A DNA stretch of 64,000 nucleotides. It comes from Desulfovibrionaceae bacterium. Lineage in GTDB: Bacteria > Desulfobacterota > Desulfovibrionia > Desulfovibrionales > Desulfovibrionaceae. A program made the position numbers and the translations under genes. The DNA lies in the NCBI GenBank assembly GCA_015709315.1, contig JACCQI010000010.1, positions 1 through 64,000 on the forward strand, in the 5' to 3' direction. A model generated the notes under the pieces. That model saw nothing but the letters and a program-made list of their open reading frames with translations. It was not told the origin of the DNA and searched no databases. Shown one piece after another: positions 13,928 through 23,591 of this stretch. Every line of letters starts with the position of its first letter. Position 1 is the stretch's first letter.

Positions 13928-15150
13928 TGTCCGTTCCCCAGCAGGGTCTTGAGCCCGAACCAGTCGTTGAAGGGCACGAATCTGCCGTCCACGAGTCTTG
14001 TGAAGTAGATGGCGTCGAGCCCCTGCCGGTCCTCCGGCCCGTATGTGATGATCATGCCCGGCCCGACCTCGAAGTTTCGGATGGACTCGATGGCCTGGAT
14101 CAGCCCTTCGCGCGTCAGGTTGCGCCCGGCCCGCTGAAGCCCCTCCACCAGGATGCGGGCGTTGAGAAAGCCCTCGAGCCCCACGAAGCTCGGGGTGTCG
14201 TTGGGGAAATACTTCTTGAGCAGGGCCACGTATTCGGAGGCCGCGCCCTTGACGTCCGAGGACGACGTCGGGGGCGGCACTACCTGGGACATGAGCACGT
14301 TGGCCGGGGTGCGGGAGCCGATGCGCCGGGCAAGTTCCTCAGCGCCCACAAAGGAAACGTTGTGGAAGACCGGGTCGTAGCCTTGGTCCAGGGCCAGGTT
14401 GATGAACCGGGCGCACGCCCCGTAGGTGCCGATCATGATCACGGCTTCGGTCCCGGCCTTGCGGATCTTGTCCAGGGCGTCCTCCACGTTCAGGGTGCCG
14501 CGGATGTAGGAGCTGCGGGCCACCAGTTCCATGCCGAACTGCTTGAGCGCCAGCTCGGTGCCGACCAGGCCGTCGAAGCCGTAGGCGTCGTACTGGTAGA
14601 AGACCCCGATCTTGGACAGCTTCAGGTCCTCGACGATGTGCCGCACCGCCGAGGCGGTCTCCTGGTAGTAGGATGCCCGGATGTTGATCACGTTGCGGTT
14701 GAAGGGCTCGCGCAGCCGGTTCGCGCCGGTGAACATGCCGATCAGCGGAATCTTGGCTTCGTCCACCAGGGGGAGCACCTTGACCGTGGTCGGGGTGCCC
14801 ACATAGCAGAACAGGGCGAACACGTCGTTGTCGATGATCAGGTTCTGCGTGTTCACCAGACATTGGGGCGGGTCGTAGGAGTCGTCCATGGCGATCACTT
14901 CGATGCGTCTGCCGTGGACGCCGCCGGAGTCGTTGACGTTGTTCAGATACGCCTGTGCCCCGCGCAGGGTCTGGGTGCCGAGGTACCCGGCGTGCCCGGT
15001 CAGAGCCAGGGAAGAGCCGAGGCGGATGGTGTCGTCCGAAACGCCGGAAGTGCGAACGGCCTTCCCGGCATGGTCGTCCGCCGTATCACAGGAGGCGACC
15101 ACGGGCACAAGCAGGCAGATACAAAGGAGTATGCGGATGAAGTGGCGCAC
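13924..15150 (-). CDS. Periplasmic binding lipoprotein, branched-chain amino acid type
   Basis: A 408-residue type I periplasmic binding protein of the Leu/Ile/Val-binding (ANF receptor) family. A lipobox LVPVVASC at about residues 14-21 predicts a lipoprotein. The mature part begins with IRLGSSLALTGHAGYLG and contains GGVHGRRIEVIAMDDSYDP, both typical of the family. No ABC permease or ATPase genes are adjacent. Its stop overlaps the sensor kinase start by 4 bp, so it probably presents ligand to that kinase rather than to a transporter. Confidence 0.85.
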   Translation of the reverse strand: MRHFIRILLCICLLVPVVASCDTADDHAGKAVRTSGVSDDTIRLGSSLALTGHAGYLGTQTLRGAQAYLNNVNDSGGVHGRRIEVIAMDDSYDPPQCLVNTQNLIIDNDVFALFCYVGTPTTVKVLPLVDEAKIPLIGMFTGANRLREPFNRNVINIRASYYQETASAVRHIVEDLKLSKIGVFYQYDAYGFDGLVGTELALKQFGMELVARSSYIRGTLNVEDALDKIRKAGTEAVIMIGTYGACARFINLALDQGYDPVFHNVSFVGAEELARRIGSRTPANVLMSQVVPPPTSSSDVKGAASEYVALLKKYFPNDTPSFVGLEGFLNARILVEGLQRAGRNLTREGLIQAIESIRNFEVGPGMIITYGPEDRQGLDAIYFTRLVDGRFVPFNDWFGLKTLLGNGQ

Positions 15151-15269
15151 CTGGACTGTCTCCCGTAGGCTCTATTTGATTGAATTGGAACCATAGTTAC
15201 TGGCTCGGCAGGGAAAAGACAAGACCGCAGGGGAATATAGCGATTCTGCATGGCGCCATGGGAAAAAGG

Positions 15270-15298
15270 GGACCCCGGTGGATCGCCCGCCGGGGTCC
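15270..15298 (-). terminator. Intrinsic terminator of fdhAB
   Basis: A 9-bp stem, GGACCCCGG with CCGGGGTCC, is followed on the minus strand by CCTTTTT (A-run at 15263-15267). It lies between fdhB and the binding-protein promoter. Confidence 0.75.
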
Positions 15299-15369
15299 GG
15301 GAAAAGCTCCGCATGCCCCGGGGGAAGGATTCCCGGACGGTTTGGCTTACGGAGGTGTCCCGTCTATGA

Positions 15370-15406
15370 AGCCCGGTGCCGGCAGGCTGAGAGCCGACAC
15401 CGGGCT
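15370..15406 (-). terminator. Strong hairpin directly after fdhB
   Basis: A 14-base inverted repeat (AGCCCGGTGCCGGC with GCCGACACCGGGCT, one mismatch) begins 9 bases after the fdhB stop. No T-run follows on the minus strand, so it may protect the 3' end of the mRNA, with the stem at 15270-15298 acting as the true terminator. Confidence 0.5.
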
Positions 15407-15414
15407 GTTTTCGA

Positions 15415-16134
15415 TCAGGAGGTTATGCTTTTTACCGGACGGCCCAGGGTGGCCAGGAATTGCTTTCTGGTCAGGGGGCCGCGCGGCGCGACCGAGGCGG
15501 ACAGGGACTCGTAGTAGCTGTCCGGGTCGGTCTGGACCAGGTAGATGACGCGCACGTATTCGGCATCCACCAATTCGGCTTCGGGGTACTTTTTCTTCGC
15601 CTGGGCCAGCCGCTTCTCCGCCAGGGCGAGCATCTCGTCCCGGTCGCCGAAGTTCATGGCTCCGGTGGGGCACGTCTGGACGCAGGCGGGCAAAAGCCCC
15701 ACCTTGACGCGGTCCACGCACATGTCGCACTTCACGACCTGGCCCGTTTCCTCGTTGATGCGGGGAATGTCGTAGGGACAGGACATCTGGAAGGCGTCCT
15801 TGTCCGGTTCCTGGGCCGTCAGTTCGGTGTAGACCACGGCCCCGGTCTCCTCGTCATGGATGATGGAGCCGGGCACGGTCATGGCGTCCAGGCAGGGCGG
15901 TTCAATGCAGTGGCGGCACTGTTCCGGGAAGAACAGCCACTGCATGTCTCCGCGGTCGCCCACTTCCTCGAAGCGGACCAGTTTAAGGGTAACGCCGGAC
16001 AGGTCCTTGGGGTTCTGGTGGGAGCCCCAGTTCTCGGTCTTTTCGGCGGGCAGTTTCTTCCATTGCTTGCAGGCAACCTGGCAACCACGGCAGGCCGTAC
16101 ACTTGGTCAGGTCGATGAAGAATGTCTTGCTCAT
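15415..16134 (-). CDS. fdhB: Formate dehydrogenase beta (iron-sulfur) subunit
   Basis: A 239-residue ferredoxin-like electron-transfer subunit with four cysteine clusters: CTACRGCQVAC (residue 12 on), CRHCIEPPC (about 73), CPYD (about 119) and CDMCVDRVKVGLLPACVQTC (about 137). These would carry four [4Fe-4S] clusters linking the molybdenum or tungsten site of FdhA to periplasmic cytochromes. It has no signal peptide of its own, so it should be exported with FdhA by the Tat route. AAGGAGG precedes the ATG, and it lies 12 bp after fdhA. No gamma (cytochrome b) or dedicated cytochrome c3 subunit follows. Confidence 0.93.
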   Translation of the reverse strand: MSKTFFIDLTKCTACRGCQVACKQWKKLPAEKTENWGSHQNPKDLSGVTLKLVRFEEVGDRGDMQWLFFPEQCRHCIEPPCLDAMTVPGSIIHDEETGAVVYTELTAQEPDKDAFQMSCPYDIPRINEETGQVVKCDMCVDRVKVGLLPACVQTCPTGAMNFGDRDEMLALAEKRLAQAKKKYPEAELVDAEYVRVIYLVQTDPDSYYESLSASVAPRGPLTRKQFLATLGRPVKSITS

Positions 16135-16146
16135 TTCATTCCTCCT

Positions 16147-19100
16147 TTACGCCTTGCGGACGTTGACCATGAAGGCCTTGGTTTCAGGAATGCCGGTGTT
16201 CGGGTCACCGACGGACGGGGTCAGCAGGTTGGCGGAATCGCCTCCGTCCTTGGGCCATGTCCAGCCGAAGTGCCAGGGCAGGCCGACCTGATGGACGGTG
16301 GTTCCCTGGATGGAGAACGGCTTGAGCCGCTTGGTGACGATGGCCTTGCCCCACAGGGAGCCGCGCAGGGATTCGATCACGACCTTGTCGCCGCTGCCGA
16401 TGCCGCGCATTTCGGCCAGTTCGGGACTCATTTCCACGAAGACCTGCGGCTCGCATTCGGTCAGCCAGTCGCAGTTGCGGGTCATGAGGCCGGTCTGCCA
16501 GTGTTCGGTCACGCGATAGGTGGTGCCGATCAGGGGATACCTGGGATCGCACACGGCCTTTTTCTCGTCGTCGAACTTGATGGCCGTCGGGTTGTGCAGG
16601 GTCTTGGAGAACGGATGCTCCTTGACCGGGCATTCCAGCGGCTCGTAGTACTCGGGCAGCGGTCCGTCTGCACGGCCGGGGCCGAAGAGCTGGCCGAAGC
16701 CGTGCTTGCGCATGATGAATGCGTACTTGGAACCGGGAGCCCAGCCGCCGTCGGGCACGTCGCCGACCCACTTCTCGCCGTTCCAGGCGATGACCGCCTT
16801 TTTCGGGTTGTAGGGCTTGCCCTGAAGGTCCACGGAGGCGCGGTTGTACAGAATGCGGCGGTTGACGGGCCAGCACCAGGAGAAGTTCGGGAACAGCCCG
16901 ATATTCGCCTGCTCCGGGGTCTGGGCCAGGTCGCGCCGGGCGGCCATGTTGCCCTTTTCCGTGTAGGAGTTGCAGTACAGCCAGTTGCCGGAGGTCGTGG
17001 AACCGTCGGCCTGGAGGAAGGCGAAGCTGGGAACCAACTCGCCCTTCTTGTACATCTTGCCCTTGATTTCGATGTCGCGGGTGAAGCGGCCGTTGATCAA
17101 CTGGGCCGTCTTGTGCGGATCGAACACGCCGTTGGTGGCGATGGCGTCCCAGGTGAGCCTGGTGATGGGCTCGGGATACGCGCCGCCTTCCTTCTTGTAG
17201 AGGGACTGGATCTCATGCATCAGTTCGTAGATGAGATCGCCGTCCGGCTTTTGGTCGTTCGGGGCGTTCGGGCCCTTGTAGCGCCATTGCATCCAGCGGC
17301 CGGAGTTGGTGATGGAGCCTTCCTTTTCGATGGAGACCGCGCAGGGCAGGAAGAAGACCTCGGTCTTGATCTTGGTCGGATCCATGCCGGGACCTTCCCA
17401 GAACCAGCCGGTTTCATTCGGGAAGATGTTGACGTTGACCAGCCAGTCCAGCTTGGACAGGGCGTTTCTGGTCTTGTTGGAGTTGGCGCCCGAACAGGCG
17501 GGGTTCATGCCCCAGGCGAACAATCCCTTGAACATGCCCTCTTCCATCTTGTCGAACATGGGCAGCCAGGAGTAGATGCTGGCCGCGTTCTTGTCGAGCC
17601 TGGGCAGGTACTCGTACGACTTCGCCGGATCGTCATCCTGCCACATGGACTTGAGGAGGGAGGCGGAGTACTTCGGGTAGTTCTGCCACCAGTTGGCGGA
17701 CTTGGGATCGTTGGAATGCGGGGTGTACGCCTTGTTGTACGCCTCGAAGGAGTCGTCCTTGGCCGACGGTGTCTTGAGGTAGCCGGGCAGGATGTGGAAC
17801 AGCAGGCACTGGTCCGTGGATCCCTGGACGTTGGATTCGCCGCGCAGGGCGTTGACGCCGCCGCCGGCCACGCCGATGTTGCCGAGCAGCAGCTGGACCA
17901 TGGCCATGGTCCGGATGTACTGCACGCCCACGGTGTGCTGGGTCCAGCCCATGGCGTACATGATGGTGCCCGCCTTGGTGCCCGTGCCGGTGGCCGCATA
18001 GGTTTCGTACAGCCCGACCAGTTCCTTCTTGGACATGCCGGAGATGGCCATGACCTTGTCGAGGTCGTAGCGCGCGTAATGCTTCTTGAGCATCTGGTAC
18101 ACGCACCGCGGGTTCTTGAGGGTCGGGTCCTTTTTCGGGTTGCCGTCCGCATCCATGGCGAACGCCCAAGTGGACTTGTCGTAGCTTTTGGTCTTGGGAT
18201 CGTATCCCGAGAACAGACCGTCGTCGAAGGTGTACTTGTCGCCGAGGATGAAGGACGCGTTGGTGTAGTTGACCACGTAGTCCTTGAAGATCAAATCCTT
18301 GTCCAGGATGTACTTGATCATGCCGCCGAGCACCGCGATGTCGGAGCCGGAGCGCAGCGTCATGTGCATGTCGGCCTTGGCCGAGGTCCTGGTAAAGCGC
18401 GGGTCCACGTGGATCACGGTCGCGCCCTTTTCCTGCGCCCGCGTCACCCATTTGAAGGATATGGGATGGTTTTCGGCAGCGTTACTGCCCATTATGAGAA
18501 TGCAATCGGAGTTCTGGATGTCGGTCCAGTGATTGGTCATCGCGCCGCGTCCGAACGACTCTGCCAGAGCCGCAACAGTCGCGCTGTGTCAGATACGTGC
18601 CTGATGCTCTATATACACCAGGCCGAGGCTGCGGAGCATTGTCTGGTAGGCCCAGCACTCCTCGTTGTCCAGGGCGGCCGAACCGACGGAAGCGATGCCG
18701 TCGCAGCGGTTGACCACCTGGCCCTTGGCGTTCTTGACCGTGAAGGTTTCGTCACGCGTTTTCTTGACGTTGTGGGCGATCTTTTCCAAGGCCCAGGCCA
18801 GAGAGACCTTCTTGAATTCCTTGGAATAGGGCGCGCGGTACAGGACGGAATCCGGGCGGCGGTCGTTTTCGGCCAGCTGCCAGATGGATGCGCCCTTGGC
18901 GCACAGGGCGCCTTCGTTGATGGGATGATCAGGATCACCCTCGACGTTGACGGCCCGCATGTCCTTGAGGGACGTGTTGACGATCAAACCGCAACCCACC
19001 GCACAGTAACAGCAGATGGACGTGGTTTGCTTGCTCCACTTCGGGTTCAGCGCGGCCGCGTGGTCGGGCAGTTTGCCCGCCTTGGCGTTACGGGCGAACC

Positions 19101-19173
19101 CGAGCCCTCCGAATGCCGTGGCCGTGGCCGCGGCGGCGGAAAGCTTCAGAAAATCCCTTCGATTGGTGTGCAT
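16147..19173 (-). CDS. fdhA: Selenocysteine formate dehydrogenase alpha subunit
   Basis: A catalytic subunit of 1008 residues that oxidises formate (or reduces CO2) at a molybdopterin or tungstopterin site. The N terminus is a Tat signal (NRRDFLK near residue 4). A [4Fe-4S] motif CCYCAVGCG follows near residue 53. An in-frame TGA at 18589-18591 (codon 195) stands between EHQARI and HSATVAALAESFGRGAMTNH, exactly where known enzymes have selenocysteine in RVUHGPTV; a SECIS-like hairpin follows at once. Automated callers would split the gene here. GAGGAGG precedes the ATG. It is upstream of fdhB; fdhE and fdhD are nearby. Confidence 0.95.
18557..18580 (-). promoter_or_regulatory. SECIS element of fdhA
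   Basis: Starting 8 bases after the UGA, GACT pairs with AGTC and, inside it, TGC pairs with GCA around the apical loop GGCTCTG. Size, position and the G/U-rich loop resemble the bacterial SelB-binding hairpin of E. coli fdhF. This supports reading the UGA as selenocysteine. Confidence 0.7.
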
Positions 19174-19199
19174 TCAACCTCCTCTTGTTGCGTACGGGC

Positions 19200-19430
19200 T
19201 TATCGCCCGCGAATCTCGCGCCCCAGGGACACGAGCAGCTTGTAGCCGGTTGGCCGGGCGCATTCAGGGGTGGGCGGGACGGTTCCTTGGCAGTCACGAT
19301 GACGACGAGGTGTTGCCGGGACCATCATCCGCGCCGCCGCCAGAACGCCGTGCGTGTCGAATCCCAGCCCGCCGAAAGGCATGAGTTCCGTCACGGCCGC
19401 AGCCGCCGAATGTTTGGTGAAAAAGCGCAC
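19200..19430 (-). pseudogene. 76-codon ORF resembling a decayed fdhA N terminus
   Basis: From GTG 19430, preceded by GGGAGAGG, the frame reads VRFFTKHSAAAAVTE and then FGGLGFDTHGVLAAARM. This recalls the Tat signal region of FdhA proteins (RRDFLKLSAAAA...FGGLGF in the intact copy next door), but one arginine of the twin pair is missing. After about 40 residues no similarity remains, and it stops 27 bp before fdhA. I read it as the remnant of a second fdhA copy or of a partial duplication. A short translated leader peptide is the alternative. It lies between the operon promoter and fdhA. Confidence 0.4.
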
Positions 19431-19700
19431 TTGCGTACCTCTCCCGTTATTTCGGTTATCCCTTTTATGTACACATAGCGGGAAGGTTTCCAAGAAAACC
19501 GTCATAGGCTCGCTCTCGCACAGGCGAAAATGATGTCTTGTAGTATAACTAGTTGTTTTTAATGGAGTTCTTTTATGTCAAAATGGACATAAATTGTTAA
19601 CTTGATTATGTTTTGGCACTAAACTGGGGAAATTGGAGTGTGAAGGGGGCGTCCGGCATGCCGGACGCCCCCTTCATGTGGTCGGAGAGGTTGGGCCGGG
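19431..19700 (-). promoter_or_regulatory. fdhA upstream region with palindrome
   Basis: This AT-rich stretch holds a perfect 8-bp inverted repeat, TTTATGTC-N6-GACATAAA, at 19572-19593, a good candidate operator or promoter element for the fdh operon. At 19642-19675 there is a separate 34-bp perfect palindrome belonging to the 3' end of the transposase-like gene. No ORF is supported in between. Confidence 0.5.
19642..19675 (-). terminator. 34-bp perfect palindrome after transposase-like gene
   Basis: The arms (GAAGGGGGCGTCCGGCA and its exact complement) form a 17-bp perfect self-complementary sequence centred at 19658/19659. It lies 25 bases past the stop of the transposase-like gene. There is no T-run, so termination is only one possibility; it could also be the end signal of a mobile element. 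Confidence 0.5.
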
Positions 19701-20630
19701 TTATTCCGGCGTGGAGGGCACCAGGGCGCACAGATAGGCGGCCAGGATTTCGTTGAGAGGCTTGTCCCGGTTGTTGAAGCGGAACTCCAGCTCCTTCATG
19801 TAGAGCGGGAAGCGTTGGCAGGAGATGCCCCGGAATTTCTTGATTCGGGACTGGGCGAATTCCCAGAACGTGTCGCCCACGGCGTCGATGTGGGGCGGCT
19901 CGTCGTAGCGCCGGATGATCTCGTAGGGCAGCGAGTCGTTGCCGCAGAAGATGAGCGCCTGGTATTCCTTGTATCGGTCGGTGTACACCAGGTTTCCGGT
20001 GCGGATGAGCTTCAGGTGGAAGTTCATATGGAAGTGGAACAGGGTCTCGGCCTGGAATCCGGGCACCAGGTCCACGAAGACCAGGCCGTCGCGGCGCAGG
20101 ATGCCGTAGACCGGGATGGTGTCCATGCGCATCTCGCGCGGCCCGCCGGTCAGCCGGTTGCCCTTGATGTAGGAGTCCAGCCCCGTGGCCGGACTCAGGA
20201 GCTGGCGCGCGTCGATGGCATGGGCCAGGATGGCGAACCGGATGGCGGTCAGGGCCTTATATACTGTATTGTACGACAGCGAGAGCGTCTCCTTCATCTG
20301 GTGAACGGACTGCTCCTTGACGAACAGGCTGATCAGCCGCAGCCACTCGGACGGGGAAAGCGCGCCGGAATTGATCCACCGCCCGGAAAAGGGCTGGAAG
20401 GTGTATTTGCAGCCTGCGCAGCGCAACCGTTCGCCGGACAGCGTATAAACCTTGCGGTGGCCGCAGCGCGGACAGAAGGGGTCGCCCATGGGCCAGGTCA
20501 GGCCGAGCAGGTAGTCGCGCGCGGCCTTGTCGTCGTCAAGCAGGGCCTTGAAGCCGCCCGGCGCGGCCGGGGCGCAGTCCGCGGGTATGACGTGCGAATT
20601 GTGGAGGCGCTTGCGTTGCAAGGCGGGCAT
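19701..20630 (-). CDS. IS1595-type transposase homologue in the fdhE operon
   Basis: A 309-residue protein of the IS1595/ISXO2 type. A zinc ribbon lies at about 52-77 (CPRCGH...CAGCKYTF), then a helix-turn-helix, and a DDE-like region with GLDSYIKGN (about 150), VYTDRYKEY (about 217) and the C-terminal signature FRGISCQRF...EFRFNNRD. The ATG is only 13 bp after the fdhE stop and has a strong GGGGGT site, so it is expressed with fdhE. No inverted repeats bracketing the gene alone were found. It may be a resident transposase kept for another job, or a recent insertion that lost its ends. Confidence 0.75.
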   Translation of the reverse strand: MPALQRKRLHNSHVIPADCAPAAPGGFKALLDDDKAARDYLLGLTWPMGDPFCPRCGHRKVYTLSGERLRCAGCKYTFQPFSGRWINSGALSPSEWLRLISLFVKEQSVHQMKETLSLSYNTVYKALTAIRFAILAHAIDARQLLSPATGLDSYIKGNRLTGGPREMRMDTIPVYGILRRDGLVFVDLVPGFQAETLFHFHMNFHLKLIRTGNLVYTDRYKEYQALIFCGNDSLPYEIIRRYDEPPHIDAVGDTFWEFAQSRIKKFRGISCQRFPLYMKELEFRFNNRDKPLNEILAAYLCALVPSTPE

Positions 20631-20643
20631 AATACCCCCTGTT

Positions 20644-21513
20644 TTAGAATCCCCAGGCGGACAGTGTCGCCCGCTTGTATCCCTGGTTCGCGGCCACGTA
20701 GTCCAGCGCCAGGGAGTCCAAGTCGTCCAGGATGGGAACGGCCACCCGGTCCAGGTTGCGGAAATCGATGGTCTTGACGTAGGTCTTGCAGGTTTCGCAG
20801 ACGTCCACCCGGAACCCCGGCTCCTCGTCCACGGTGAAAAAGGTCAGCTTTTTCTGATCGTCCTCGCCGCAGATCGGGCAGGCCAGCCGCCTGATCCGGT
20901 ACTGGTGGCGGCAGAACGAGCAGGTGGCCTGCCGGAATCCCTCCTTGTTCTCCAGGGAGGAAATGAGCGGCAGCGAGCCGCAGATGGGACAGGTGCCCGA
21001 TTGCGTCACCTTCATGTCCGGCAGCTTTTCGGCAAGCTTACGGGCCACCGCCTCTATGGACGGATTCAGTGCGGCGAAGGCGAGGAAGGACAGCGTCCTC
21101 GGCGCTTCGGGCATGCGTTCGGCCCAAGGCGCGAAGAATTCGTGATCGTCTTCCAGAAATTTTCGGAACAGCACGTCGGGGCGCAGTTCTCCGGCATCGA
21201 GGGCTGCGCGGACCGCGGCCGCCCCGTCGGCCAGGGGGCCTCCCGCGTCCCTGAGCAGGGTGATCATCCTGTCCAGGAGGCTTTCGGCCTGGCGGGCGTC
21301 ATAGGGGAAGTTGCCGCGCCCGAGCAGCGGCACGCCCTGGAACACGGCTTCGGCCGGGGCGAGCTGGTTGTCGGCGGGCAGTTCGATCTCGGCCAGTTCG
21401 CGCATATCCAGATGAAGATGGGTCACCGTGTCCAGCAGGTCGATCAATTCACGGGAAATATAGGACTTGCCTCGCAGTTGGGCGAGTTTCTTGTCCAGTC
21501 GGGTTTTTTCCAT
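20644..21513 (-). CDS. fdhE: FdhE, formate dehydrogenase accessory protein
   Basis: A 289-residue FdhE-family protein. The C-terminal half carries four CXXC pairs (CPIC, CSFC, CPIC, CETC between about residues 172 and 250), which bind iron in a rubredoxin-like way. FdhE assists maturation of formate dehydrogenase before Tat export. It starts the operon that continues into the transposase homologue, and lies between fdhD and fdhAB in the same orientation. The 270 bp upstream are AT-rich and probably hold the promoter. Confidence 0.9.
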   Translation of the reverse strand: MEKTRLDKKLAQLRGKSYISRELIDLLDTVTHLHLDMRELAEIELPADNQLAPAEAVFQGVPLLGRGNFPYDARQAESLLDRMITLLRDAGGPLADGAAAVRAALDAGELRPDVLFRKFLEDDHEFFAPWAERMPEAPRTLSFLAFAALNPSIEAVARKLAEKLPDMKVTQSGTCPICGSLPLISSLENKEGFRQATCSFCRHQYRIRRLACPICGEDDQKKLTFFTVDEEPGFRVDVCETCKTYVKTIDFRNLDRVAVPILDDLDSLALDYVAANQGYKRATLSAWGF

Positions 21514-21782
21514 GGTCAGGTCCTTGTAGGTATTTCCTCGTCAAATGAAACCTATGACCGCGTGCGTATCTTGCCAAAGCTTTTACACTTGCTTAAGGTT
21601 TGGCACAATATGTAGTAACACGTTGAATTTATGGAATAATATTAGAAATTAATATGCCTAAAAAGACATAATGCAATTGAAAAATGTCGAAAAATATGAC
21701 TGTTTCAATAGGCGAAAGCCATACGATTTTTCCGGGTCTAGCCGGGGCTAGCCAGCCGAGGCGGGGTCGGAAGGGAGGGGGG
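21514..21782 (-). promoter_or_regulatory. fdhE upstream region
   Basis: This AT-rich spacer between fdhD and fdhE includes the half-site GACATAA near 21666, the same core as the palindrome upstream of fdhA. No gene is supported. There is no clear T-run terminator for fdhD. Confidence 0.35.
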
Positions 21783-22562
21783 TCAGAACCCGGTGATGCG
21801 GCCCGCGTCGTTGTACACCCAGAACCGATCATCCCGGGTGTTGCCGATCAGGGTGATGCCGGTCTTGCGGGCCAGCTCCACCGAGAAACTGGTGGCAACG
21901 GCCGTGGAGCAGAGCACCGGGATGCCGATGCGGACCACCTTGAGCAGGATTTCCGAGGCCACCCGGCCCGTGGTGACGATCATCTTGTCGTCCACGGAAA
22001 CGTCGTCCAGGAAGCACTGGCCGCAGATCATGTCGATGGCGTTGTGCCGCCCGATGTCCTCGCGGAAGAGCAGTATCTCCTCCGGGGTACACAGGGCGGA
22101 GTTGTGGCAGCCGCGCGTGGCCGAGTAGAGAGTGGAGCGTTCGTGCAGTTGCCGGGCCAGGGCCAGCACCTGCTCCGGCGCGACCTTGATGTCGCCTGTC
22201 AGCCGCCGCTTGGAGATGGTGGCCACGTTGCGGCCGAAATTGGTTCCCTTGCCGCAGCCGGAGGTGATGGACCGCTCCATGATCCGGCCCTTCCACGGGT
22301 CGTGGCAGGTCTCGACTTCGGCCACCAGGCGGTTCCCTTCCTCGCGCACGGAAATGTCAGTGATCTGATCGGGGGCGGACAGGAAGGCGTCGGATTTCAA
22401 AAAGCCTATGGCAAGATATTCCGGGTGCTTGGCCGTACACATCAGGGTAACGACCTCCCGGCCGTTGAGCATGATGGTCAACGGCACCTCGCGGATGGAG
22501 TGCACGGGCTTTCTGACGAAGCCTGAACGGTATTCGTGGATTTCGTGGTTCATGGAATCCAT
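21783..22562 (-). CDS. fdhD: FdhD, sulfur carrier for formate dehydrogenase
   Basis: A 259-residue FdhD-family protein needed to sulfurate the molybdenum cofactor of formate dehydrogenase. The family landmarks are present: FREDIGRHNAIDMICG (about 155-170), TTGRVASEI (about 190) and GITLIGNTR near the end. The catalytic cysteine region reads SGCGKGTNF, so the first Cys of the E. coli CxxC is kept and the second is replaced by Gly. I start it at ATG 22562 with AAGGGAG 5 bases upstream; a longer frame begins at 22592. It is separate from the fdhE operon but in the same direction. Confidence 0.9.
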   Translation of the reverse strand: MDSMNHEIHEYRSGFVRKPVHSIREVPLTIMLNGREVVTLMCTAKHPEYLAIGFLKSDAFLSAPDQITDISVREEGNRLVAEVETCHDPWKGRIMERSITSGCGKGTNFGRNVATISKRRLTGDIKVAPEQVLALARQLHERSTLYSATRGCHNSALCTPEEILLFREDIGRHNAIDMICGQCFLDDVSVDDKMIVTTGRVASEILLKVVRIGIPVLCSTAVATSFSVELARKTGITLIGNTRDDRFWVYNDAGRITGF

Positions 22563-22661
22563 GGCAGCTCCCTTTGGTCCCTCAATATGCATCCTTCATA
22601 CCGGACGCGGGAAAAGGGGGGCAAGCGCCGCCCATTTGCCCCGGCTCTTGCACTGGCGCGC

Positions 22662-23060
22662 CTACTTGGCCGGAACGGTGCGGCAGCGCGCCGCTTCCAT
22701 GATGCGGTCGGCCAGGACGTCCGCCCCGGCGGGCTTGTGGAACAGGTCGAAGGCTCCGGCCCGGAAGGACTCCAGGCAGCCTGTCCGACCGCCGGTGAGC
22801 ACGATGAACTCGATGGTCCGGGATTGGCGTTTGATGGCCTTGAGCAACTGCATGCCGTTCACGTCGGGCAGGCCCACGTCCAGCACCACCACGTCGAAAG
22901 GCTCGCTTTCGACCATGGCGAACGCCTCCCCGCCGTCGGCGGCGGTACGCACGGAAAATCCGCGCCGGGCAAGCCGTTTGCGCAACACGTTTGTGAAGTC
23001 GTAGTCGTCGTCCACCAGCAGGACACGGATGGCGTCGGCCTGTGTTCCGTTTCGGTGCAT
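22662..23060 (-). CDS. Single-domain response regulator (CheY-like)
   Basis: A 132-residue receiver domain with no output domain. The acidic pocket is LLVDDDYDF, the phospho-acceptor Asp lies in VVVLDVGLP (near 60), the switch Thr in IVLTGG (near 88), and the Lys in LFHKPA. No Shine-Dalgarno site is obvious before ATG 23060. It is transcribed toward fdhD, about 100 bp away, and is divergent from the next sensor kinase. Such stand-alone receivers usually act by protein contact. Confidence 0.82.
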   Translation of the reverse strand: MHRNGTQADAIRVLLVDDDYDFTNVLRKRLARRGFSVRTAADGGEAFAMVESEPFDVVVLDVGLPDVNGMQLLKAIKRQSRTIEFIVLTGGRTGCLESFRAGAFDLFHKPAGADVLADRIMEAARCRTVPAK

Positions 23061-23591
23061 GGGTTTTTTGTTACAATGTACATGCCAACCGGAGCGGAAG
23101 GGGATTTTTTTTTCACCTGGCCGGCCTCGGGGGGAGATGCCTGTTTATTCCATTAATACATTATGTTGCAAGGTGTGAGCCGCTGTTGGCAAGTACTGGC
23201 CGGACATGTTTTTTTGCCCTTGGATTTCATGAGCGGAAGCAGGTTGGGCACAAAGTGGGGCGTTTCGCCCCACTTTGTCCGAAAAAAAATAGGTCAAACC
23301 GTGCCAACCGGGGTTTTTTGTGATATTGAGAATACGGTACAAAAGGTGCCGGCGATACAAAATGTATCACTTCAAAGTGATTCATTCCGCGCCGGTTGCT
23401 TGCTTTGGGCTGATGAAGGGAGCGGGTGGTTTTGATCCATTGTTAAAAATATTCAATAAAATCAGTATGAATATCTGTTGTGGCCGCAATTCGAAACAGG
23501 CACATTTTTGCCCGGTATGGCACGCGGCTTGCTCATGGAGGAACGGTGGCCCTGCCGTCGCGGCGGTGCACGGCCCCGGCAGAGGAGCGGC
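23061..23591. promoter_or_regulatory. Divergent control region between receiver and sensor kinase
   Basis: This 530-bp low-GC region has no supported gene. It holds a perfect 13-bp hairpin at 23250-23278 (ACAAAGTGGGGCG, 3-base loop), a 16-bp palindrome ATCACTT-CA-AAGTGAT at 23366-23381, and two copies of TGCCAACCGG (near 23089 and 23301). These are candidate regulatory elements for the signalling island to the right. Confidence 0.45.

Follow-up and report, generated by a model that had tools for sequence, protein, structure and literature searches.

Among regulators of molybdenum and tungsten (Mo/W) metabolism, TunR is reportedly a tungstate-responsive regulator of sulfate reducers that arose from XerC/D-type recombinases and carries a ModE-like sensor, and TaoR is another that we take to be derived from a mobile element. 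Selection among formate dehydrogenases (FDHs) by Mo, W and formate is said to be known as physiology, and we know of no named FDH-specific regulator in these sulfate reducers. TldR proteins, in turn, originated from TnpB. In the available portions of the sources, TaoR (Rajeev, 2019, as cited in PMC10102598 and PMC11980592) is described as a tungstoenzyme-associated regulator family combining a helix-turn-helix (HTH) with a PBP-like domain, and TldRs as RNA-guided transcription factors (PMC13418256). Searches of the open-licence literature returned no paper linking ISXO2 with formate dehydrogenase and, judged by titles and the starts of abstracts, none on a domesticated IS1595-type regulator of this kind; a search on FDH, Desulfovibrio, transposase and fdhE gave only works unrelated by title, and one for TunR came back empty.

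We analysed a 64,000-nucleotide stretch of DNA from a Desulfovibrionaceae bacterium (the whole of it is called the window here), for which an original prediction had placed an IS1595-type protein, without visible element ends, directly behind fdhE and had suggested its domestication for another role. Taking the evidence below together, we consider, with a probability of roughly 0.7, that this protein, termed TNP, is a domesticated and catalytically dead IS1595-group transposase turned dedicated transcriptional regulator of FDH genes in the Desulfovibrionales.

TNP and its gene neighbourhood

The genes run on the minus strand of the window in the order fdhD, fdhE, TNP, a hairpin, a small ORF, a TGA-containing fdhA and fdhB. 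Pfam and NCBIfam both identified fdhD (21783..22592) and fdhE (20644..21513), the latter an FDH accessory protein with the Pfam domains FdhE_central and FdhE_C, and the TNP ORF (19701..20630; 309 aa) begins with an ATG 13 bp beyond the fdhE stop. Past TNP follows a GC-rich hairpin (GGGGGCGTCCGGCATGCCGGACGCCCCC, 19645..19672), read from the sequence and unscored, which is a possible terminator. fdhA (16147..19173), named by homology and context, encodes the FDH catalytic subunit, with a Tat-like start and an in-frame TGA at 18589–18591 that is read as Sec; fdhB (15415..16134), for the iron–sulfur subunit, was named by eye and context. Just 5′ of fdhA, the small ORF (19200..19430, 76 aa) contains the motifs PF-x-GLGF and LGREIRGR and matches no Pfam or NCBIfam family above cut-off. 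Small ORFs with PFxGLGFDL near the start and LGREIRGR at the end occur 21–74 bases 5′ of fdhA in 79 of 109 loci, and their first motif is similar to AFGGLGFDL in the Tat-like start of FdhA.

The predicted place of TNP and its ribosome-binding site were both borne out, an AGGGGG preceding the ATG, and the short gap together with a predicted promoter shared with fdhE (see below) suggests that the two genes are co-transcribed. Its IS1595 type was confirmed by Pfam, in which both Zn_ribbon_IS1595 (45.7 bits, cut-off 25.4) and DDE_Tnp_IS1595 (64.5 bits, cut-off 27) pass; up to E = 1, no ModE HTH, TOBE, PBP-like, HTH_17 or recombinase domain appeared in the scan, in which only the IS1595 domains pass cut-off. 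With the NCBIfam IS1595 model (equivalog-domain), TNP scored 51.5 bits, below the cut-off of 75, three further family members scored 22.6–37.4 and two living relatives 141.6 and 146.8. The zinc ribbon (residues 33–77, 20400..20534), found with Pfam, has its cysteines at C53, C56, C71 and C74, each present in 80 of 81 aligned homologues. DSSP on an AlphaFold model with a mean pLDDT of 92.1 (58 sequences) outlined an HTH region (residues 85–136, 20223..20378), with SYNTVYKA, by eye, as its recognition segment; an RNase H-like domain, its catalytic set lost, lies at residues 141–268 (19827..20210). Structural HTH matches to the model were weak (VIA-align, Z up to 4.3) and covered HTH pieces only, and Foldseek gave no match at E ≤ 0.001. 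Zinc-ribbon and immunoglobulin matches from a PDB sequence search (best E 2e-4) were rejected as true relatives and taken for chance or a shared ribbon.

Relatives of TNP without FDH genes nearby are in many cases intact insertion sequences (ISs), mostly of 898 bp, to which TNP is 36–45% identical. The catalytic columns D, D, N, E and K (DDNEK) were fixed on these living relatives, and residues were counted in 147 sequences, left from 159 of sufficient length after removal of those alike over the last 260 residues. All five are kept in none of the 129 family members (a few of which have no FDH nearby), as against 17 of the 18 rows of FDH-free relatives: none is kept in 22 family members, one in 53, two in 47 and three, the maximum, in seven. 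TNP itself reads D D D D Q, having kept D152 and D218 and replaced N by D249, E by D253 and K by Q260. The single degenerate row among the 18 (L218:8037-8819, residues -DNTR) is an IS1595 homologue from a Desulfuromonadales MAG with no FDH genes near, possibly a separate domestication. Mean identity between the family (16 rows) and living elements (14 rows) is 53% in the zinc ribbon and HTH, 29% in the catalytic part and 56% in the C-terminal part; the corresponding values among living relatives are 67%, 78% and 70%, the catalytic part being the best conserved. By sequence and model, a DNA-binding domain of zinc ribbon and HTH has been retained.

A protein search of the own genome assembly (3.28 Mb, 87 contigs) returned TNP as the single match at E ≤ 1, and PF12762 likewise found one match, leaving no copy elsewhere in that genome. 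The end pattern of the living relatives, allowing up to three mismatches, formed no pair in the window, in agreement with the predicted lack of element ends; its one match (19596–19620), 80 bases past the TNP stop, is by itself not beyond chance as a likeness to a whole element end (chance mean 0.13; 13 of 100 shuffles have a match). That TNP is a still mobile or recently inserted IS that landed behind fdhE would suit both its Pfam name, transposase, and the abundance of real IS1595-domain elements in several sister genomes, but TNP has neither the full catalytic set, nor the end pair or target duplication, nor the multiple copies or movement of an active IS, and most orthologues in the genus are 81–91% identical (27 among the matches listed, the others being 58–71% identical) and lie behind fdhE; we regard this origin as next to impossible.

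Inheritance alongside formate dehydrogenase genes

TNP relatives run throughout the order Desulfovibrionales. Matches were found in 127 of 197 genomes, the own one included, some of them hits to real insertion sequences that are weak or occur in many copies, and a profile search of 395 genomes drawn across the phylum gave 18 with a match at 1e-20. We read 80 stretches selected from a longer match list (most of 16 kb, five of 9–13 kb), of which 79 held family members and one a true IS relative (L096), making 80 family loci with the window. FdhA (at least 45% identity), FdhE or FdhD occurs within the same stretch (up to 16 kb) in 73 of these 80. Among those without FDH genes in the stretch, TNP lies behind moeA in L051 and L053, with mobA (L051) or mobB (L053) alongside; near the copies in L082, L089, L090, L110 and L111, no FDH or moeA-type gene was identified. 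The TNP homologues of family f2 in L110 and L090 adjoin a gene that by eye resembles topoisomerase I, and FDH genes are absent from their surroundings. Screening of named genomes gave 202 confirmed loci, a good number of which share a genome; among the best 80 of these 202, 17 were outside the Desulfovibrionales by title and had no FDH match, some of their contigs being short. The Desulfovibrionales loci among these best 80 have FDH matches apart from L149 and L185, whose long stretches include no FDH operon, and L158, L160, L186 and L206, which lie near contig ends.

Most of the genus, and near genera, keep the pairing of fdhE with TNP; loci of the genus are related, so that counts among them are non-independent. 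In other arrangements, TNP stands a few hundred bases 5′ of fdhA, follows fdhE and fdhD in their orientation, or is convergent or divergent to a second FDH type, with which TNP paralogues pair separately. The last pairing appears to have arisen more than once, since L054, a further duplicate within the genus, also adjoins this FDH type. Beyond the original prediction, then, fdhE is only one of several FDH and cofactor genes that neighbour TNP. Over 111 loci, the FdhA matches with 45% identity or more comprised 102 TGA and 13 Cys codons, and a Sec-specific role of TNP was rejected, as TNP accompanies both Sec and Cys FDHs.

This company of maturation and cofactor genes (fdhE, fdhD, moeA, mobA and mobB), and the presence of TNP beside both Sec and Cys enzymes, would also fit an accessory role in the maturation of FDH or the handling of its Mo/W cofactor, with the nucleic-acid-binding fold now holding the guanine-dinucleotide cofactor or FdhA and the promoter boxes described below belonging to another regulator. 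We consider such a role unlikely, if worth keeping in view: it is the HTH and zinc ribbon that are well kept relative to living transposases, and the catalytic part that is not.

Within the genus, dN/dS is 0.135 (Nei–Gojobori, 16 sequences, 120 pairs; synonymous sites fairly saturated, pS 0.57), being 0.42 in the first 45 residues and 0.084–0.11 in the three remaining core parts. In a tree made by a quick method from 83 rows selected from the 147, with five long branches flagged, a split with an SH-aLRT of 88 sets all 18 FDH-free rows apart, and the members of paralogue group 2 form one clade (100). A neutral relic on its way to loss might be suspected from the long branches of some distant copies (L111, L103 and L089 among them) and from the 70 of 197 genomes without any TNP match. 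For the genus it is contradicted by the low dN/dS of the core, by a dedicated and conserved predicted promoter and by the occurrence of an internal stop in just one match (G088) among those listed; overall we hold it to be extremely improbable. The domestication of TNP itself is well supported, upholding the original suggestion of another role: the protein is inherited by descent beside FDH genes, has lost its catalytic set, survives as a single copy with no end pair and is under purifying selection.

Boxes like those in the ends of living relatives at predicted promoters of the cluster

The ends of the living elements begin with a GGYRATT tip, followed after about eight bases by a T-Y-TGRCAC box, at both ends where both are readable; this internal box, GGTGYCARAMCT, is present in 14 of 15 right ends read. 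Where both flanks are available (11 copies), A/T-rich target repeats of 8 bp are present in seven (L190, L199, L201, L202, L204, L210 and L219). At the right end, the tip and the stop codon overlap, and the box falls within the codons for the transposase C-terminal Val-Pro (L190, L196, L199–L205, L208, L210 and L219). A 39-bp element 5′ of fdhA across the order was rejected, GTGCCAAA at several places simply encoding the conserved Val-Pro of the C-terminus; because of this overlap, the fdhA test described below was restricted to the stretch past the TNP stop codon.

A 12-column matrix was built from 15 left boxes of the living relatives alone. Among the 127,978 positions of the window, its first-ranked site is at 19609 (minus strand), in the fdhA promoter region, and its sixth at 21596 (minus strand), in the fdhE–TNP promoter, so that, going beyond the original prediction, the two promoter regions share a putative box found in the ends of living relatives. 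We then applied the matrix to 19 fdhE–TNP loci (a slice of the window and 18 others, in 16-kb slices of about 32,000 positions each): the stretch 880–1200 bases 5′ of TNP holds a site ranked 1–15 and, six times, the first, a result that none of 400 column-permuted matrices equalled. Between the TNP stop and fdhA, the best site of the locus was found in nine of 45 loci, which come from four genera, and a top-three site in 15 of 45, the remaining 30 stretches having none. None of 400 permuted matrices reached these counts (means 1.2 best and 3.3 top-three; maxima 8 and 11), one of the 400 equalled the observed mean log rank, and stretches shifted by −3 to +5 kb contained best sites in 0–2 loci and top-three sites in 1–8. 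Enrichment 5′ of TNP was not seen in paralogue group 2 (10 loci, ranks 3–98) and mostly not in 31 other loci, 24 of which rank over 10.

At the fdhE–TNP promoter, the site found with the matrix is the first box, TGTGCCAAACCT (21596–21607), of a composite element (21572..21607, minus strand). A second, weaker box, AGTGTAAAAGCT (21578–21589), follows with an 18-bp period and abuts a −35-like TTGGCA (21572–21577), and a −10-like TAGGTT (21549..21554) stands 17 bp past it, all on the minus strand. The genus consensus, GTGYCAAACCTTGAGYAAGTGYNARACCTTTGGCA, has the same two boxes with 18-bp spacing abutting TTGGCA, the tandem boxes reading GTGYCAAACCT. All 30 sites have TANNNT at a spacer of 16–19 bp (19 sites with 17 bp, eight with 18 and three with 19), as against a mean of 1.7 and a maximum of 7 in a shuffled control. 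A 35-base composite pattern, at up to three mismatches, gave 34 matches, spread over 32 of the 36 genomes of the genus (two for a reversed-pattern control); 32 of the matches are 5′ of fdhE–TNP or TNP (30 read directly, those in G010 and G015 assigned by coordinates) and two elsewhere (G006 and G026). Since the pattern was derived from these very promoters, finding it at them is circular, and independent evidence comes only from its near-uniqueness and from the matrix of the living relatives. The element is kept 5′ of TNP in G014, which has no adjacent fdhE, and in weaker forms 5′ of lone TNP copies in G023 and G017; the two lone copies in G020 have no composite element (matrix ranks 24 and 8). 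Among the TNP promoters of the Desulfomicrobiaceae and their kin (family f4 together with named relatives), nine of 11 carry, about 150 bases 5′ of the gene, GTGYMAAA and then two bases, the second being C or T; in four such promoters tested with the independent matrix, the ranks were 3, 27, 53 and 32, only L080 being high. A sigma-54 reading of TTGGCA was rejected on its spacing (by eye), and so was an RNA leader or riboswitch, as Rfam found nothing at gathering threshold in 14500–23500 and the element reads as −35/−10 with upstream boxes.

The box of the fdhA promoter region, AGTGCCAAAACA (19609..19620, minus strand), is single and lies 16 bp 5′ of the palindrome described in the next section. 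With a matrix made from the genus fdhE–TNP boxes, the best site upstream of fdhA was at exactly this distance in 10 of 14 genus loci and elsewhere in the other four.

These matches of promoter boxes to the ends of living relatives are not predicted if TNP acts away from DNA. In the regulator reading that we favour, a transposase would have been tamed in an early ancestor of the Desulfovibrionales, losing its chemistry and keeping the end-binding domain through which TNP would now bind the predicted boxes. From there it may regulate its own operon, at a site whose abutment on the −35 is activator-like, and, from the single box 16 bp from the palindrome, the small ORF–fdhA–fdhB unit; the dead RNase H-like domain could serve dimerisation or effector sensing. 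The boxes themselves may descend from actual element ends or may have been recruited later. Counting against this reading, the box holds on its other strand TTGRCA, resembling a −35 hexamer, and a different regulator could bind it.

A Mo/W palindrome and comparison with known systems

An exact palindrome, TTATGTC-N6-GACATAA (19573..19592), lies 5′ of the small ORF and fdhA, and a copy with one mismatch, TTATGTC-N6-GGCATAT (21652..21671), lies 5′ of fdhE–TNP, both on the minus strand. At up to one mismatch, the own genome contains five TTATGYC-N6-GRCATAA sites (none for the reversed control), the three others being 5′ of a second fdhA, 5′ of a MoCF-domain gene and, in C4, at no nameable Mo/W gene. 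The second fdhA (77% identical; L250, C83 near 42198) is accompanied by a small ORF and by a palindrome with one mismatch, and no TNP stands with it. Across the genus, the exact palindrome occurs in 32 of 36 genomes, at 56 sites (one for the control); 19 of the 30 loci read are at FDH, FdhE or TNP genes, seven at MoCF, FmdE-MoCF or AFOR (aldehyde ferredoxin oxidoreductase) genes (the AFOR gene of L251 about 800 bases off) and four at none of these. We selected 41 other genomes, 25 with TNP and 16 without (G110 with only a trace), and found the palindrome in 14, that is in 12 of the 25 and two of the 16 (control one). Of their 19 sites, 16 were read, and 12 of these are at Mo/W, FDH or TNP genes, two directly 5′ of TNP (G071 and G129); G042 and G068, neither with a TNP match, have the palindrome 5′ of AFOR genes. 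The palindrome marks a Mo/W-enzyme regulon (AFOR, FmdE-MoCF, MoCF and FDH) in many Desulfovibrionales (L246–L250, L251–L279 and L283–L298). In several loci, a ModE-like HTH gene lies between the palindrome and an fdhA of 44–51% identity (L259:1592-1984, Pfam HTH_1; L277, L287 and L295), a place held in other loci by the small ORF or TNP.

Its sites before fdhA, fdhE–TNP and, in G071 and G129, TNP itself could make the palindrome the operator of TNP, and TNP a general regulator of the Mo/W regulon. This was rejected as the leading view and seems to us quite improbable, given the palindromes before AFOR genes in two TNP-less genomes and a described tungstoenzyme regulator family, TaoR, which combines an HTH with a PBP-like domain. 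Because it also occurs in genomes without TNP, we do not assign the palindrome to TNP; the sequence evidence points to an operator of Mo/W-enzyme genes that is read by a protein other than TNP, or at least not by TNP alone, and perhaps by TaoR. The TNP gene or operon carries such a palindrome in G000, G071 and G129, and G020 has one between TNP and a divergent MoCF gene, which would again suit an accessory protein. Under the regulator reading, the palindrome beside each box would be read by a different regulator, placing FDH under two inputs.

Because it carries transposase domains, the TNP family would be passed over as mobile DNA, yet it travels with FDH through an order of sulfate reducers, and TNP is a candidate FDH-specific regulator with exact predicted sites. 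If this is correct, a transposase has retained the sequence that its ancestors recognised, now as an operator of the host, and its living relatives allow a direct comparison. More tentatively, and short of an even chance in our estimate, the family may represent DDE transposases turned transcription factors that reuse transposon-end boxes as operators, in tandem at their own promoter and singly at fdhA, with a dead catalytic pocket that is perhaps now a sensor of formate, tungstate or molybdate; TNP would then be the third Mo/W regulator derived from a mobile element, after TunR and TaoR.

With IS1595-family insertion sequences of the ISXO2-like type, TNP shares the zinc ribbon, the HTH, the RNase H-like domain and the 12-bp box; it differs from them in having no end pair, a single copy and a lost DDNEK set, in being inherited beside FDH and in the predicted use of the box as an operator. 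TunR is reportedly similar in being a Mo/W regulator of the same bacteria with a DNA-binding domain taken from a mobile-element recombinase, but it is reported to join that domain to a ModE-like sensor, whereas TNP descends from a DDE transposase and no sensor domain is known in it. TaoR, as the available portions of its sources present it, resembles TNP as an HTH regulator associated with tungstoenzyme genes and differs in its HTH_17 and PBP-like architecture, neither part of which Pfam detects in TNP. TldR, in the available part of its source, is likewise a transposon protein turned regulator, but it is guided by RNA, whereas for TNP no guide RNA is known or proposed and recognition would rest on the old end-binding domain.
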